This document shows, piece by piece, positions 1,915 to 53,925 of a stretch of DNA of 64,000 nucleotides (positions within the stretch are counted from its first letter, which is position 1; each line of letters starts with the position of its first letter). Below the pieces are notes generated by a model. It ran no database searches, was not told where the DNA came from, and saw nothing but the letters and a program-made list of their open reading frames with translations. Source of the stretch: Priestia megaterium NBRC 15308 = ATCC 14581 (GTDB taxonomy: Bacteria > Bacillota > Bacilli > Bacillales > Bacillaceae_H); the NCBI RefSeq assembly GCF_000832985.1, contig NZ_CP009920.1:1240001-1304000 (forward strand), in the 5' to 3' direction. The position numbers and the translations under genes are program-made.

Positions 1915-2865
1915 TTAACTTATTTTTAAGGTTTGTTTAATAACCAAATATTGTTCAATTTCTTTGACTACGTGCAGTAAATCGGCACGCGCTTCAAACT
2001 CTTCCCGCGTTTTGGGAAGCGGCATCTCTGCAAACGCTTCTCGTAAATGCTGAAGTTTGGCTAAAAATAATTTTGCTGTATTACCGGGGTGGATGGATAG
2101 ACTTAATTCTTCAATAAAATCGGCAATCATGTAGCGCTGTTCTACCACCAAATCAATAGCGGTAATGAGAGGAAGGGTACGCTCAATAATTTCAAGCTGT
2201 TTTTCACGAATTTTAAAATAGCGGTAATAATAATTTTCCCCACGCACAAAATGATTTTCTACATCACGAAACGCAAGGCTTTTTGCTTTTTCTAAAATTT
2301 TTACCGTATCTGCAATTTCCTTACCGTCCCAGCTGCTGTCATTGGTTCTGAGATACAGGGCAATTTCTTTTAACATCGACCGGAAATTTTCTTCAATTTC
2401 TTGCTGATACGTGCGAAGCTCTTGATCTAAACTTGGCATGTATAAATTCACAAGCAGGGCAACACCTATCCCAATTACAATTAAGCCAAGTTCATTAAAG
2501 ACGATTCCCCATGTCATATTGCCTTTGGAGTAAATATGAAGCAAAATAACGGAGCTTGTAACAATGCCTGCATTAACTTTGAATATAACCGTAACCGGGA
2601 TAAACAAAAGCAGCATCAGTCCTATAACAAGTGGATGATAAGCAATCCCTTCAAAGAATATAAACGAAAACAGAATGGATAAAGAACAAGCAATAAAACG
2701 ATCGCTTGCACTTCGCAACGATTTTTTCTTTGAATTTTGAATGCACAAAATGGTGATAATTCCAGCTGATACAAAAAACTCGAGGTGAAAGAACTGAGCT
2801 ATAATAATAGCCAGTGATGTACCGACGGCTGTTTTAATTGTCCGGTACCCAATTTTAAATTTCAT
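1915..2865 (-). CDS. yqjA: YqjA-type aromatic acid exporter family membrane protein
   Basis: Belongs to the ArAE_1 (DUF939) family, with an N-terminal block of several transmembrane helices (about residues 8-145) and a cytoplasmic C-terminal helical domain (about 150-316) rich in charged residues. The N-terminal KIGYRTIKTAVGTSLAI is typical. The family is related to the AaeB/FUSC permeases, which export aromatic carboxylic acids, but the substrate of Bacillus YqjA has not been shown to my knowledge. The ATG at 2865 is preceded by AGGAG at normal spacing. The gene stands alone, with an AT-rich gap of about 160 bp separating it from artR. Confidence 0.8.
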   Translation of the reverse strand: MKFKIGYRTIKTAVGTSLAIIIAQFFHLEFFVSAGIITILCIQNSKKKSLRSASDRFIACSLSILFSFIFFEGIAYHPLVIGLMLLLFIPVTVIFKVNAGIVTSSVILLHIYSKGNMTWGIVFNELGLIVIGIGVALLVNLYMPSLDQELRTYQQEIEENFRSMLKEIALYLRTNDSSWDGKEIADTVKILEKAKSLAFRDVENHFVRGENYYYRYFKIREKQLEIIERTLPLITAIDLVVEQRYMIADFIEELSLSIHPGNTAKLFLAKLQHLREAFAEMPLPKTREEFEARADLLHVVKEIEQYLVIKQTLKIS

Positions 2866-2981
2866 TTTCTAGACTCCTACATGTTGGTTTCTTTTTAGTG
2901 TGATAAAATACTCTATTCTTTATTAACACGAATAGAAAAATAACACAACCTTAAATCTTGCTGTACCGTATAAATTCCAAT

Positions 2982-3024
2982 AAAAAAAGTGCAGAAAAGA
3001 TCGTACTCTTCCTGCACTTTTTTA
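2982..3024 (-). terminator. Terminator of the artPQR operon
   Basis: On the minus strand the arms AAAGTGCAG and CTGCACTTT enclose a loop and are followed by a T run. It sits directly behind the artR stop codon. Confidence 0.8.
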
Positions 3025-3747
3025 TTATAAAATCTTTTCTAAGAAATCTTTAGCACGCTTGCTTTTAGGAGCTGAGAAAAATTCAGCCGGAGGCGCATCT
3101 TCAACAAGGACACCGCCGTCTAAAAACAGCACACGATCCGCTACTTCTCGTGCAAATCCCATTTCATGCGTTACAATGACCATCGTCATTCCTGTTTCTG
3201 TTAGCGACTTCATTACATCTAGTACTTCTTTTACCATCTCTGGATCTAATGCTGAGGTTGGTTCGTCAAACAGCATCACTTTCGGCTCCATTGCCAGTGC
3301 TCTGGCAATAGCTACACGCTGCTTTTGACCGCCCGATAAGCGATTTGGAAACTCGTTGGCTTTTTGAGCAAGTCCCACTTTTTGGAGTAATTCTTTGCCT
3401 TTAGCAACAGCCGTTTCTCTTGACACGCCCTTTACCGTCATCGGAGCATACGTCAAATTTTCAAGCACTGTCATATGTGGAAACAAGTGAAAATGCTGAA
3501 ATACCATTCCTACGTTTTCACGCACACGCATAATGTTTGTTTTTTTATCTGTAATCACTTGACCGTTAATTGAAACTACTCCGCTCGTCGGTTCTTCAAG
3601 CAGGTTCATACAGCGTAAAAAAGTAGATTTACCAGAACCAGAAGGGCCAATAACAGCTACGACTTCTTTTTCTTTAATCGTAGTTGAAATACCTTTTAAA
3701 ACTTCATTTTTACCAAATGATTTGTGTAAATTTTCAACGTTAATCAC
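3025..3747 (-). CDS. artR: Arginine ABC transporter, ATP-binding protein
   Basis: Energises uptake of arginine, and possibly other basic amino acids, as the ATPase of a polar-amino-acid ABC importer. All nucleotide-binding motifs are present: Walker [10 protein letters not shown] (residues 34-42), a Q-loop in [13 protein letters not shown], signature LSGGQKQR, Walker [13 protein letters not shown] and the H-loop ending IVTHEMGF. The length of 240 residues is normal. Translation starts at a GTG inside the last codons of artQ (8-bp overlap), so the genes are coupled. Gene order artP-artQ-artR equals B. subtilis yqiXYZ, which is the basis for the arginine assignment; sequence alone would not separate arginine from glutamine or cystine systems. 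Confidence 0.88.
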
Positions 3748-4411
3748 CTTTTCTCATTCTCCTCTCGACTGCTTTACCAAGGAGCGTTAAGCCCATTACC
3801 ATTACATAATAAATCAACCCTGCAAAAATTAACGGTTCAAGGTAGGCGAATTTTTCTCCACCTACAATGTAAGCACGGCGCATAATGTCGAGTGCTCCAA
3901 TAACTGTAACGATAGCTGATTCCTTTGTTAATGTAATGAACTCATTCATTAAAGCAGGTAAAATATTTTTAAGTGCCTGTGGCAAAATAATTTGTCCCAT
4001 CATGCGGCGATAAGGAATTCCTAACGCTAATGCCGCTTCACGCTGTCCTTTATCAACAGCTAAAATACCAGCGCGAATAATTTCAGATATATATGCTGCA
4101 GAGTTTAGCCCGAACGCAGCAACGGCCGCTGGAAACGGGGCAATATCAAACCCGAGCAGCTGAGGTAATCCAAAGTATATTAATAATAATTGCAATACTA
4201 GCGGTGTTCCGCGAAACACGGACGTATATGCATCCGCAAACCATTGAAGAGGTTTATTGCGGCTGATTTTACATAAAGATAAAATAACTCCCAGCACAAA
4301 CCCTAAAATTGCTGAAGCTAGGACTATCTGTATCGTTACCCCTATCCCTTTTAAAATATAAGGCATAGAAGGCACGATTTGCGAAAAATCCAAATTCATG
4401 CCTAGTTCCAT
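3740..4411 (-). CDS. artQ: Arginine ABC transporter, permease
   Basis: Membrane subunit of the ArtPQR importer, in the HisM/HisQ family. About five transmembrane helices are visible, beginning with [12 protein letters not shown], and the EAA loop appears as [22 protein letters not shown], the contact surface for the ATPase. The length of 223 residues is typical. Two in-frame ATGs are possible. The first (4411) lies only one or two bases from GAGAGG, and the second (4399, MNLDFSQIV) lies about 13 bases away, so the start is uncertain by four residues. It sits between artP and artR in one operon. Confidence 0.87.
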
Positions 4412-4430
4412 TCCTCTCTAACTATCATTC

Positions 4431-5240
4431 TTATTTTTGGTCGTCAAACCACTTAACGATTAATTTATCTAATTCACCGTTTTCTTTCATTTTCTTTAAT
4501 TCACGGTTAAAGTCATTCGTTAGCTTGCTGTCTTTAGGAAATGCGATTGCTGATCCTTTACTTGAATCTGGACGTCCTGTATCAGACATTTGCAAGCTTT
4601 TGTCTTTGTTCACATACCCTTTAGCTACTGTATCTTCAATAATCGCTGCATCGATACGATTTGATTTCATTTCTTGAATTAGTTCTGGAATACGGTCACG
4701 CGTTGTTACATTTACTCCGTCAACTTCTTTTGCAATTTCTTTTGCTTCGTCTGCTTGGATAGAAGAAGTTTGTACACCGACTGTTTTCCCTTTTAGTTCT
4801 TCTGCATTTTTAATTGGCGCATCTTTCTTCGATACAATCATGTTTTTTGCTTCATAATATACGTCTGAGAAGTCCACGTTCTTTTTACGCTTTTCAGTTG
4901 GCGTCATACCAGCTAAAACTAAATCGACTTTATTAGATTGTAAAGCTGGAATTAATCCGCCAAATTCCATATCCTTCACCTGTACGTCATAGCCTAACTT
5001 TTTACCGATTGTTTTTGCTAAATCTACGTCAAATCCGATTGCTTCACTATCACCTTTTGCCGTATCAATATATTCAAATGGTGGGTAATCTGCTGATGTT
5101 CCCATTACTAGTACTTTTTTATCTTTGTCGTCGCTGCTTGCTCCGCCATTAGACGTTCCTTCTCCTGCTCCGCATGCAGCTAAAACGCCTGCTGTTAAAA
5201 GACCAATTGCCGTTACCGATAACCACTTCTTCAATTTCAT
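4431..5240 (-). CDS. artP: Arginine ABC transporter, substrate-binding lipoprotein
   Basis: Extracellular solute-binding lipoprotein (SBP_bac_3 family) that captures the amino acid for ArtQR. The signal peptide ends in a lipobox, LAAC, with the lipidated Cys at residue 23, followed by a flexible Gly/Ser/Asp linker. The mature domain shows the family landmarks YPPFEY, AIGFDVDLAKTIG, LQSNKVDLVLAGMT and KTVGVQTSS. It has 269 residues and is the first gene of artPQR. A possible ARG box lies about 100 bp upstream (5335-5348). The arginine assignment rests on synteny with yqiX of B. subtilis. Confidence 0.88.
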   Translation of the reverse strand: MKLKKWLSVTAIGLLTAGVLAACGAGEGTSNGGASSDDKDKKVLVMGTSADYPPFEYIDTAKGDSEAIGFDVDLAKTIGKKLGYDVQVKDMEFGGLIPALQSNKVDLVLAGMTPTEKRKKNVDFSDVYYEAKNMIVSKKDAPIKNAEELKGKTVGVQTSSIQADEAKEIAKEVDGVNVTTRDRIPELIQEMKSNRIDAAIIEDTVAKGYVNKDKSLQMSDTGRPDSSKGSAIAFPKDSKLTNDFNRELKKMKENGELDKLIVKWFDDQK

Positions 5241-50945: not shown

Positions 50946-52715
50946 TTAAAGGCCGCATTTCAGCTGTGCACCACAGTTTGTACATGTGTTGCATCCGCCC
51001 ATTTCTTCTACCGTTCCTTGACGGCAAACCGGACACGTATTACCTACTTCAGAACCGATTGTTACATCAGTTGAACGAATTTCATTAATTGTATCAACTA
51101 ACACAACGTGCGGTTTCGTTTCTTCTTTTGGCGCTTCAATTTCTTCATCAAACGTATTTTCTTCTGCTTTTAGCGTTAAGACTTGTGCATCACGGCTGCC
51201 GTCTACATACACCGTACCGCCTTTTGCTCCGCCTTTATACAGACGCTCGTACACTTTTTGAACTTGCTCTACTGTGTAACCGCGAGGAGCGTTTACTGTT
51301 TTACTAATTGAACTGTCAATCCAGCGCTGAATCACACATTGCACATCCGCGTGAGCTTGTGGGGCAAGTTCCATAGCTGAAATGAACCATTCAGGAAGGT
51401 TGTTTGGATCTGCTTCTGGATGCTGATCTAAATACTCTTGAACGATATCAGCTTTTACTTCAATAAATTTACCTAAACGGCCGCTTCGGAAGTATGAGAA
51501 TGAGAAATAAGGTTCAAGACCCGTTGATACTCCAACCATTGTTCCAGTACTGCCTGTTGGCGCTACTGTTAATAAATGAGAGTTTCGGATACCGTTCTCT
51601 TTAATGTTTTCACGAATATCTTCAGGCATTTTTTTCATGAAGCCTGTATTTGTGAATGCTTCACGTAAAGAAGCCGTTTCAGCATCTGTTTCGCCCACTA
51701 AGAACGGGAAGCTTCCTTTTTCTTTTCCAAGCTCTACAGACGCGCGGTAAGCCGTCGTTGCAATTGTTTCAAACACTTTATCTACTAACTCATTGCCTTT
51801 GTCAGAGCCGTACTCTGTTTCACAATAAATAAGAAGATCGTGAAGACCCATTACACCAAGGCCAACGCGGCGTTCGCCAAGCGCTTGCTTTTGGTTTTCT
51901 TCTAAGAAATAAGGAGTTGCATCAATAACGTTATCTTGCATTCTAACGCCTGTTTCAACCGTTTGACGTAACTTTTCAAAGTTAACAGTTTTCGTTTCTT
52001 TATCTGCCATTTGCGCTAGGTTAACAGCAGCTAAGTTGCAGACAGAGAATGGTGCAAGTGGTTGTTCACCACATGGATTTGTTGCAACAACGTGCTGACC
52101 ATATGCTTGAGCATTTGTCATATCATTAGCATTGTCAAAGAAGAAAATGCCTGGTTCAGCTGAGTACGTTGCACAAATATTAATTAAGTTCCATAGCTCT
52201 TTTGCACGGATAGTACGATACGTACGAACTTTGTTTCCTTGTTTTGCCCATTCGCGCACATCGCCTACTTCGTGCCAGTTTTCATTGTAGTTAGCCATTT
52301 CTTCTTTTGAATAGCTTTCTACGTCTGGGAAGCGAAGTTCGTATTCTCCGTCGTTTTCAACAGCATCCATAAAATCTTTTGTTAAGCATACAGAAATGTT
52401 TGCTCCTGTTAAAAACTCTGAGTTATGAACGCTGTACGTTCCGCCTGTTTGCAGCTTTTCTTCTGCATCTTTGATGATTTTTTCACTGAACCCACCAAGA
52501 CCAGGAATTTGTTTATAGTTAATGATTCCTTGGTACATCGCTTCTTCAGACTCTGTTAGCGGCGTGAACTTCAATTTATCTTGCGCATGTTTTTTAATCA
52601 TTTCGTCATTTGTGTTTTCAATTAAGAAACGTAAAATGCGAGGGTTTTGCATTTTAGAAATAATAAATTCTACAATGTCAGGATGCCAGTCGGCAAGCAT
52701 GATCATTTGGGCCCC
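50946..52715 (-). CDS. nrdJ: B12-dependent ribonucleotide reductase, exon 2 (C-terminal 589 residues)
   Basis: Second exon of the class II, adenosylcobalamin-dependent ribonucleotide reductase, which reduces ribonucleotides without oxygen. It begins at GGG of GAQMIMLADWHPDIVEF. NPCGEQPLAPFSVCNLAAVNLAQ carries the active-site Cys and Glu region, VAPTGSTGTMVGVSTGLEPYF is the phosphate loop, and the C-terminal GNTCPVCRQG...GGCNTCTNCGAQLKCG Cys cluster is typical of the B12-dependent Bacillus-type enzyme. Read on its own, the frame runs back 12 codons into the intron and could be called from an artificial start (MTVPFLTKSNKLGAQ). With exon 1 it makes 852 residues. Confidence 0.92.
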   Translation of the reverse strand, partial: GAQMIMLADWHPDIVEFIISKMQNPRILRFLIENTNDEMIKKHAQDKLKFTPLTESEEAMYQGIINYKQIPGLGGFSEKIIKDAEEKLQTGGTYSVHNSEFLTGANISVCLTKDFMDAVENDGEYELRFPDVESYSKEEMANYNENWHEVGDVREWAKQGNKVRTYRTIRAKELWNLINICATYSAEPGIFFFDNANDMTNAQAYGQHVVATNPCGEQPLAPFSVCNLAAVNLAQMADKETKTVNFEKLRQTVETGVRMQDNVIDATPYFLEENQKQALGERRVGLGVMGLHDLLIYCETEYGSDKGNELVDKVFETIATTAYRASVELGKEKGSFPFLVGETDAETASLREAFTNTGFMKKMPEDIRENIKENGIRNSHLLTVAPTGSTGTMVGVSTGLEPYFSFSYFRSGRLGKFIEVKADIVQEYLDQHPEADPNNLPEWFISAMELAPQAHADVQCVIQRWIDSSISKTVNAPRGYTVEQVQKVYERLYKGGAKGGTVYVDGSRDAQVLTLKAEENTFDEEIEAPKEETKPHVVLVDTINEIRSTDVTIGSEVGNTCPVCRQGTVEEMGGCNTCTNCGAQLKCGL

Positions 52716-53096
52716 CAATTTGTTACTCTTCGTTAAGAAGGGTACGGTCATTTCTGCCGTACTCTTACACTTTCATGTAAGATCAGACTATATCATCAAA
52801 GAAGAAAATTCCTTTGTCTCGTGCCCCATAGCGACGTTGCCGTTTGCTATGGTTTACTCCTTCCTTTGCTTCCATCATAACATCTACTTTATTCACTAAA
52901 GTTTTATTACATTAGAACTTTTAGGAAGTTTCAATAGTCGTTGAACCTTTATCTTCGTTTCCAAAGACACTTGGCTGCTGATTGCCCAATCTTTCCTCTT
53001 TTCTAACCATCACGCTCATCGTTGCCGATCACGTTGTGGTGAAGAAAGCTCTAAGGGTGTTCCAGCAATTCACGAGATTACGTCGCCGGTTTGTTA
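52716..53096 (-). ncRNA. Group I self-splicing intron in nrdJ
   Basis: A 381-nt insertion between the two nrdJ exons on the minus strand. The core elements appear in order: P AATTGCTGGAACACCC (53055-53070), Q AATCAGCAGCCAAG (52970-52983), R GTTCAACGACTA (52935-52946) and S GATATAGTC (52786-52794). GACTA of R pairs with TAGTC of S for P7. In P1, exon ACGTCGT pairs with intron GCGACGT over seven positions, ending in the U-G pair at the 5' splice site. The intron ends in G at 52716. Extra hairpins CCATAGC/GCTATGG and GTACGG/CCGTAC fit subgroup IA. There is no homing endonuclease frame; the first intron codon is TAA. Confidence 0.93.
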
Positions 53097-53885
53097 ACGA
53101 CGTGACCCACCTTGCTCAACAAGATGCGTCAGTTTAGCAATATCATCTAACCATGAAACCGAACCAGATGATTTGCCGTTTACACCGCGAGCCAGCGTGT
53201 TGCGGGGGCGAAGAGTTGAACCATTCGTTCCAACACCGCCTCCACGGCTCATGATTTCCATTACTTGTTTGCGGTGTTCTGAAATACCTTCACGTGAATC
53301 TTTTACATAAGGCATTACATAACAGTTGAAGTACGTTACGTCCGTATCAGCACCTGCACCGTAAAGAACGCGGCCAGCTGGTACAAAGTTTAGCTGAACA
53401 AGCTCTTGATAGAACTTTTCAAACCACTCTTTGCGCTTTTCTTCTGTTTTTTCCACAGAAGCTAAACCTGTTGCATTACGTTTTGCAATTTGCTCGTAGA
53501 AGACTTCTAGAGGTTTTTCAATGACATCTAAAGAACGAGTGATTAATCCGTTTTCTGCTTCTTCAGGCGATAAAGCTCCTCTAAACTCATCTTCTACCTT
53601 GACAACAGCGGTTTTTTGCTCAAAATTAATGCTTTCCACATAGCCAAGTCCTCGTGCTGGAAATTTTGGATCTTCCTTTACAGTTAGAACAACAAAATCT
53701 CCTTCTGATAACGTTAATTTTCCCGTATCTTTAAACGCATAGCGGTCTAACATTACCAATCTTGAAACACCTTTATGAGTCAACTTCATATCCGGTGTAA
53801 TCGGATGTACTTGCGGAAAGCGTTCAATATCTGAATTGAGCTTTTCAACATTCATATTCACTTTTTGATTTAACAAAACAGTCAT
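53097..53885 (-). CDS. nrdJ: B12-dependent ribonucleotide reductase, exon 1 (N-terminal 263 residues)
   Basis: First exon of nrdJ, from the ATG at 53885 (MTVLLNQKVNMNVEKLN) to the second Arg of GGSRR. The ATG is eight bases behind AAGGAG; a GTG two codons upstream is too close. It holds the N-terminal domain and the start of the catalytic barrel: LNFVPAGRVLYGAG, the substrate-site segment DVTYFNCYVMPY with a redox-active Cys, and GGGVGTNGSTLRPR. Without splicing, translation would end at a TAA directly after the splice site, giving a useless 263-residue fragment. Two candidate NrdR boxes lie about 110-160 bp upstream. Confidence 0.92.
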
Positions 53886-53925
53886 TCTCACAACTCCTTA
53901 CCTATCGAACATCTATAAATTTATT

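Follow-up and report, generated by a model that had tools for sequence, protein, structure and literature searches.

A group I intron without endonuclease gene in the class II ribonucleotide reductase gene nrdJ of Priestia megaterium, and its relatives at neighbouring codons in Bacillaceae

Group I introns are a known feature of ribonucleotide reductase (RNR) genes. More than 100 curated group I introns are mentioned, without names in the text, for the RNR entries of RNRdb, and the 2014 review PMC3984707 gives Bacillus recA, nrdE and a flagellin gene as cases in bacterial protein genes, together with cyanobacterial nrdE. The nrdE and nrdF introns of Bacillus prophages, the B. cereus group and Staphylococcus phage Twort are described as self-splicing and lie in RNR genes (PMC3653736, PMC3984707), but these genes are of class Ib, whereas nrdJ is of class II. 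A further group I intron interrupts the RIR gene of Nostoc punctiforme (Meng et al. 2007, as cited in the 2025 review PMC12702839). The reference list of the same review also includes the B12-dependent enzyme of Anabaena, and we infer that the Nostoc gene is of the class II, B12-dependent type, like nrdJ. The Nostoc intron, according to the title of the cited paper, has an IS element inside and its host is of another phylum than Priestia. The original prediction for the locus studied here knew of no report for a class II gene; the Nostoc citation, if that gene is of class II, would be one. In the literature searched, which left most subscription papers outside, we found no report of group I introns in nrdJ of Bacillaceae. 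The Priestia case thereby adds to an already known kind, the group I intron in an RNR gene.

The window analyzed is a stretch of 64,000 nucleotides of the 5.75-Mb genome of P. megaterium NBRC 15308 = ATCC 14581 (genome G000). Sequence comparison confirmed that a 381-nt group I intron interrupts nrdJ, the gene of the class II, B12-dependent RNR, on the minus strand (Table 1). In the alignment with the equivalog model NF005991 the two exons meet without gap or overlap; exon 2 alone reaches 1194.7 bits, exceeding the cut-off for class II NrdJ identity (854), and exon 1 reaches 487.2 bits over the adjoining positions. The joined gene has 854 codons from the first GTG and 852 from the next Met, and the 852-residue protein that had been predicted holds when counted from that Met. 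The intron ends had been predicted to the base, and we found the same: exon 1 ends in GGSRR, a stop codon stands at the splice site (TAA at 53096-53094) and GAQMIML resumes from 52715. The two annotation fragments that had been foreseen were also obtained, since mechanical ORF calling yields one piece of 265 aa and one of 601 aa, the latter starting inside the intron. Intronless homologues had been named as the place to look for the Arg-Gly join, and SRRGAQM is indeed uninterrupted in intronless relatives; in one of them, P. aryabhattai (G001), the exon proteins are 99% identical to those of the window. The solved B12-dependent enzyme 1xje, which we take to be that of Thermotoga, has no alignment gap at the exon junction. 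At the protein level the intron boundary may slide by one base without residue change; for such ties we applied the rule that the exon ends in U and the intron in G, and it is this rule that selects the boundary given for the window. The first triplet of the intron is TAA in all nine introns read at codon 264 and in all six read at codon 265. Within the genus, nrdJ was found in all 10 genomes searched, four of which (G000, G003, G005, and G007) have the intron at codon 265.

Table 1. Features of the interrupted nrdJ gene (window coordinates)
Feature	Position	Strand	Basis
nrdJ exon 1, 265 codons, end ...EQGGSRR	53097..53891	-	NF005991 positions 3-264
Group I intron, 381 nt, without homing-endonuclease gene (HEG)	52716..53096	-	RF00028 74.8 bits; covariation in 36/81 pairs
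nrdJ exon 2, 589 codons + stop, start GAQMIML	50946..52715	-	NF005991 positions 265-858
In-frame TAA directly after 5' splice site	53094..53096	-	sequence
Last intron base, G	52716..52716	-	sequence
ATG inside P9.1, ORF-finder start of 601-aa second piece	52749..52751	-	ORF list
P1 exon strand ACGUCGU	53097..53103	-	sequence, P1 search
P1 internal guide sequence GCGACGU, intron nt 11-17	53080..53086	-	U.G at splice site
P3 5' strand UCUCGUG	53071..53077	-	covariation model
P4 5' strand (P element)	53063..53067	-	RF00028 match, model
P4 3' strand (Q element)	52976..52980	-	RF00028 match, model
P7 5' strand GACUA (R element)	52935..52939	-	RF00028 match, covariation model
P3 3' strand CACGAGA	52817..52823	-	covariation model
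P7 3' strand UAGUC (S element)	52786..52790	-	RF00028 match, covariation model
5' remnant of LAGLIDADG HEG, MMEAKEGVNHSKRQRRYGARDK, overlaps P7.2 and P3	52813..52878	-	matches N-terminus of L088 HEG
3' remnant of same HEG, AATTTTCTTCTTTGATGATATAG, overlaps P8 and P7	52788..52810	-	alignment with L088 and L104

A search with the Rfam covariance model, named beforehand as a check, returned RF00028 at 53133-52764 on the minus strand with 74.8 bits (cmscan, E = 3.5e-18), above the gathering score of 50. The P7 pairing that had been claimed, GACUA/UAGUC, lies within this match, and both the seven-pair P1 closing on a U.G (ACGUCGU/GCGACGU) and the final intron G of the original prediction can be read in the sequence. 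To this we added a covariation analysis, in which the four site-265 introns and seven ORF-less site-264 introns were aligned to an explicit model of P3 to P9.2. Pairing was found in 95.7% of the cells, as opposed to 35-45% when the strands were slid by 1 to 3 columns, and both sides had changed in 36 of 81 pairs; neither value was reached in 500 shuffles. The number of further pair types, one of five shuffle measures, was less extreme and was reached by 8 of 500 shuffles. P4 and P7 are invariant in this alignment, and the argument for their pairing therefore comes from the Rfam match and from the P7 of the site-266 introns, which differs: read by eye, it is GACCA/UGGUC in five, GGCCA/UGGUC in two and GACUA/UAGUC in one of the eight, a difference from the 264/265 set that is, on these letters, compensatory. 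P7.1 pairs weakly (69.8% of cells), and P7.2 covaries in four of six pairs. Extra P7.1/P7.2 hairpins between P7 and P3 are the mark of subgroup IA. In the window P10 consists of GG/CC only, i.e., two pairs, with the first pair mismatched; the site-265 intron of genome G236 has, by eye, a P10 of four pairs, both strands of which differ from those of the window.

We propose that nrdJ would be transcribed whole, that ribosomes would stop at the TAA on the splice site, and that the 381-nt RNA would fold into a group I ribozyme, a structure supported by the comparison above. Two GTP-initiated transesterifications would join Arg265 to Gly266, by which one class II RNR would be restored. We consider it highly probable that the intron splices in this way and that it descends from a mobile intron whose HEG has been deleted. 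Selection on the host gene bears on this reading. In the intron-bearing pairs G000-G003, G000-G007, and G003-G007, both exons are under strong purifying selection, with dN/dS of 0.014-0.035 for exon 1 and 0.016-0.019 for exon 2. Of the 381 intron positions, 4, 8, and 6 differ in these pairs, respectively, at a synonymous exon divergence of 0.075-0.14, which implies either constraint on the intron or its recent spread. Such values, the absence of stops from both exons and the retention of the covarying helices are hard to reconcile with a decaying pseudogene that has lost splicing and is tolerated owing to a class I enzyme. What speaks for the pseudogene is that the HEG of the intron is dead, that P10 is weak, and that the same genome has neighbouring ORFs of 760 aa and 348 aa, read as the alpha and beta subunits of a class I RNR. 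On balance, we hold decay to be very improbable. With this second RNR, which the genome seems to have, nrdJ need not be essential, and the statement of the original prediction that the enzyme is essential was not borne out.

Restoration by splicing would also be unnecessary if the gene worked in pieces, with the 265-aa and 601-aa ORFs translated separately and their products then assembled. The ATG at 52751 is in frame and open into exon 2, and a split yet functional RNR is known, the NrdA of Aeromonas phage Aeh1 (PMC3653736). However, the P9.1 loop sequence around this ATG, GGCAGAAATG, is common to all 15 site-264 and site-265 introns read, and the ATG is open into exon 2 in just three of them, all from Priestia, while in the remaining 12 a stop intervenes or the frame differs; reading of the letters upstream revealed no strong ribosome-binding site. 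Translation in pieces thus appears extremely improbable, and splicing remains the preferred reading.

The ancestor of the spliced intron would have been a mobile form with a LAGLIDADG HEG in P8, the ends of which overlapped P7.2/P3 and P8/P7; an internal deletion, as the comparison shows, has removed the HEG and spared the ribozyme core. The intron of the window has no intact homing-endonuclease ORF, and its longest ORF, of 32 aa, is a remnant. Twenty-one residues of this ORF align without gap to the N-terminus of the HEG at locus L088 (score 70, 0 of 2000 shuffles as high), and the last bases of the L088 gene match the P8/P7 stretch of the window. A function of the small ORF as a peptide was considered and rejected, since its 31-32 codons are the start of the lost HEG and continue into the S element in another frame. 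Larger relatives were found at both codons. The site-264 intron of L088 (1170 nt) has an open LAGLIDADG gene of 290 aa (PF14528), and that of L104 (1163 nt) has one that is apparently frame-broken, with a longest ORF of 159 aa. A pattern search for the 5' intron end of the window in 397 genomes of the order, with 3 mismatches allowed, retrieved six genomes, namely, the four of Priestia given above, G236, and G299. In G236 the site-265 intron measures 1168 nt and its LAGLIDADG frame is open for 294 codons from stop to stop; from an assumed TTG start the HEG has 290 aa (PF14528, 39.2 bits), and by eye its start is similar to the 5' remnant in the window. The 498-nt site-265 intron of G299 has a LAGLIDADG frame with the middle deleted. 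We read the introns of 1168, 498, and 381 nt at codon 265 as probable stages of endonuclease loss. Since the HEG has gone by internal deletion, the intron may now be passively inherited, or a trans-acting helper or recombination in the flanks may move it.

The nearest kin found are introns one codon upstream, at codon 264, in nrdJ of other Bacillaceae. These introns (L088, Bacillus sp. ISL-41; L104, Neobacillus terrae; L095, Robertmurraya kyonggiensis; and others) share with that of the window the core, P9, P9.1, the 3' end, and the position of the LAGLIDADG HEG, but they lie one codon upstream and most of them have the guide GCGGGAU in place of GCGACGU. The kinship in core, P9.1, 3' end, and HEG argues against an intron that homed to codon 265 from a phage and is unrelated to those at neighbouring codons. 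Matches to the intron do occur in 280 of 50,697 phage records (blastn), the best being Staphylococcus phage PT1-4 with 52% covered at 80.1%, where the match has an annotated HNH homing endonuclease as its neighbour and two annotated lysin pieces on either side; yet a 25-base stretch from P1 to P3 is without exact match among the viral contigs of the collection. A plasmid search gave partial core matches alone, in 6 records. A phage origin of this kind is unlikely in our view.

To relate the sites, we built core trees with 15 site-274 introns as the outgroup. Left out, because the core pattern did not fit, were seven of the eight site-266 introns and one site-274 row (L066), of which the likewise dropped L010 is a duplicate. 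The main alignment is short (232 columns). A number of observations can be made. (i) The cores at 264, at 265, and of one of the eight introns at 266 form one group (100/100). (ii) The site-264 intron of L095 and four site-265 introns lie on one side of a split (94/77 and 89/90; 100/99 with more columns), and the cores of G236 and G299 fall elsewhere despite their 265-type P1. (iii) In AU tests, for which the groups were partly settled after earlier trees had been seen, a single clade was rejected for the six 265 cores (p = 0.015) and for the nine 264 cores (p = 2e-6). (iv) A 13-row tree with more columns, without G236 and G299, places 264 and 265 each on one side of a branch (85/87) and does not contradict single 264 and 265 groups. 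Our first reading of the trees was that 264 may be ancestral to 265, which they do not prove. The site-266 intron of L079 has a 264-type core with a LAGLIDADG gene, and its first 32 bases are identical to those of L089, a 266-type intron. We infer that recombination takes place between P1 module and core, and such an event would shift the site of an intron by one codon. There is about an even chance, we estimate, that Bacillaceae nrdJ introns of a shared core lineage (264, 265, and one at 266) shift their address codon by codon through recombinational exchange of P1 and guide between neighbours, that the window intron is one product of this after endonuclease loss, and that P. aryabhattai has been synonymously recoded.

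The exon codons at the sites are related to occupancy. In a table of 118 rows, in which some species appear twice, TCC CGT is present at codon 264 in 9 of 9 occupied genes versus 1 of 109 unoccupied rows, CGT CGT at codon 265 in 4 of 4 versus 14 of 114, AGA CGY GGT at codon 266 in 7 of 8 versus 15 of 110, and GCG GAT at codon 274 in 16 of 16 versus 5 of 102. G236, outside this table, has TCC CGT with a 265 intron. Within P1, exon and guide covary at two sites: two of seven codon-481 introns carry A-U in place of a G-C pair, and the U against U of other codon-266 introns is a C-G pair in L144 and L145. The match between exon and guide is as predicted by guide pairing, or would be so by co-conversion of the flanks during homing. 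The intronless P. aryabhattai G001 has 16 private substitutions in 2562 nt among five close genomes. Four of these substitutions, which leave the residues unchanged, occupy a 9-nt stretch at the insertion site (CGTCGTGGG to CGCAGGGGA). Such a cluster arises in 1 of 20,000 shuffles; when G009 is the sole reference, the clustering is less marked (179 of 5000 shuffles). Either recoding of the target or a short tract converted from an intronless relative would account for it. Synonymous recoding, if true, would block guide pairing and homing.

We surveyed nrdJ in 80 named loci, the top 80 among the 415 relatives of a single scan, reading sites as phase 0 with the exon ending in T and the intron in G. 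Introns of group I type were present in 34 of these 80 loci (one in 22 and two in 12) and absent from 46. Codon 274 was occupied in 16 of the best 80 loci, codon 481 in 13, codon 264 in nine, codon 266 in seven, and codon 265 in one; judged from these sequences, nrdJ of Bacillaceae is a group I intron hot spot with five sites. A further insertion, after codon 653, is present in genome G013. Six of the 80 loci (L079, L088, L095, L104, L131, and L135) have two introns separated by an exon of only 24 or 30 nt. When 13 intron-bearing loci were scanned with Rfam, each had a single RF00028 match above cut-off, though several have two or three introns. By automatic search, a clear P1 was found in 9/9, 4/4, 8/8, and 15/15 introns at codons 264, 265, 266, and 481, respectively; no clear P1 was returned for six long 274 introns, which have the HEG in L1, for one of ten short 274 introns (L124), or for the 653 intron. 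In an order-wide sample, nrdJ was present in 177 of 199 genomes (E <= 1e-60), and a hand count gave two or more matches, not all due to introns, in 65 of the 177. A full-length copy accompanies the pieces in at least two of these 65, and in at least one a contig edge cuts the gene, so that 65 is a rough figure for interrupted genes. Given these multi-piece matches, automatic annotation may often report a broken nrdJ.

Other insertions were noted along the way. Locus L113 (Bacillus sp. 522_BSPC) has no group I-type intron in nrdJ but a 2715-nt group II intron at about 2221-4935 (RF02004, 109.4 bits; RF00029, 61.1 bits). The codon-653 insertion of G013 (L145) measures 1145 nt, follows ...PTG and contains an HNH ORF (PF01844); an RF00028 match above cut-off was not found in it. 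nrdJ also breaks near residue 654 in G064, G098, and G134. Elsewhere in the genome of the window, two group I introns about 100 nt apart (G000:C6:3218604-3218941 and 3219046-3219382; L001 and L004) sit at the end of a gene whose protein reads as flagellin, and another (G000:C6:4386248-4386539; L002) lies in a gene that resembles a phage tail tape-measure gene.

The introns at codon 481 (e.g., L087:4740-5003, L068:4744-5003, and L146:1865-2164) have an invariant P7 of GCAUA/UAUGC, as opposed to GACUA/UAGUC. Among the loci scanned, none of them was picked up by RF00028, and in three this held even at E <= 10; a class of introns is thus missed by the Rfam model. Covariation is seen in 26 of 59 pairs over seven sequences, a value that none of 500 shuffles reached. 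Another class of RNA was ruled out by the covarying P3, P4-P6, P7.1, P8, and P9, and we take these insertions to be divergent group I introns. From these introns we built a covariance model, R1, which has matches in 38 of 199 genomes. It also gives a weak match to the intron of the window (23.2 bits) and is therefore not specific to the codon-481 class. Of 14 R1-matched stretches, 13 from other loci and one from a phage, eight match RF00028 as well (E <= 0.1), which indicates that many of the lower R1 matches are ordinary introns. Relatives of the codon-481 introns occur in 51 phage records (blastn), and Listeria phage LIS04 scores 171.9 bits with R1. At L143:4813-5003 codon 481 holds a 176-nt intron with, by eye, an ordinary P7 and no blastn link to the others there; by these features the same site is taken by an unrelated intron. 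Five codon-481 introns (L127, L083, L115, L096, and L080) contain an ORF of 311 aa, which by eye resembles a homing enzyme of the PD-(D/E)XK type; the one tested (L127) had no Pfam match.

Codon 265 thus provides a natural series at one site, from an open HEG frame (1168 nt) through an internally deleted one (498 nt) to the trimmed intron (381 nt), and near kin at the adjacent codon carry another guide sequence. How introns gain sites, how they persist after endonuclease loss, and whether hosts recode their targets become questions that can be tested in common laboratory bacteria. In the literature searched, we found no earlier report of sites at this density, of such tiny exons, or of a family in codon steps. 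Two parallels come from rRNA genes. Fungal rDNA introns, described as spreading by reverse splicing, include the related S1046 and S1052 introns, which lie 6 nt apart and have a common 5' flanking exon sequence (PMC1299323); the steps in nrdJ are of one codon, lie in a protein gene, and involve a replaced guide sequence. For the yeast mitochondrial omega introns, gene conversion between HEG-bearing and HEG-less forms is described as giving chimeric introns (PMC4059233), which resembles the exchange proposed here; the omega case, however, takes place within the intron of a single rRNA gene, whereas in nrdJ the exchange would occur between introns at neighbouring codons and would change their address.
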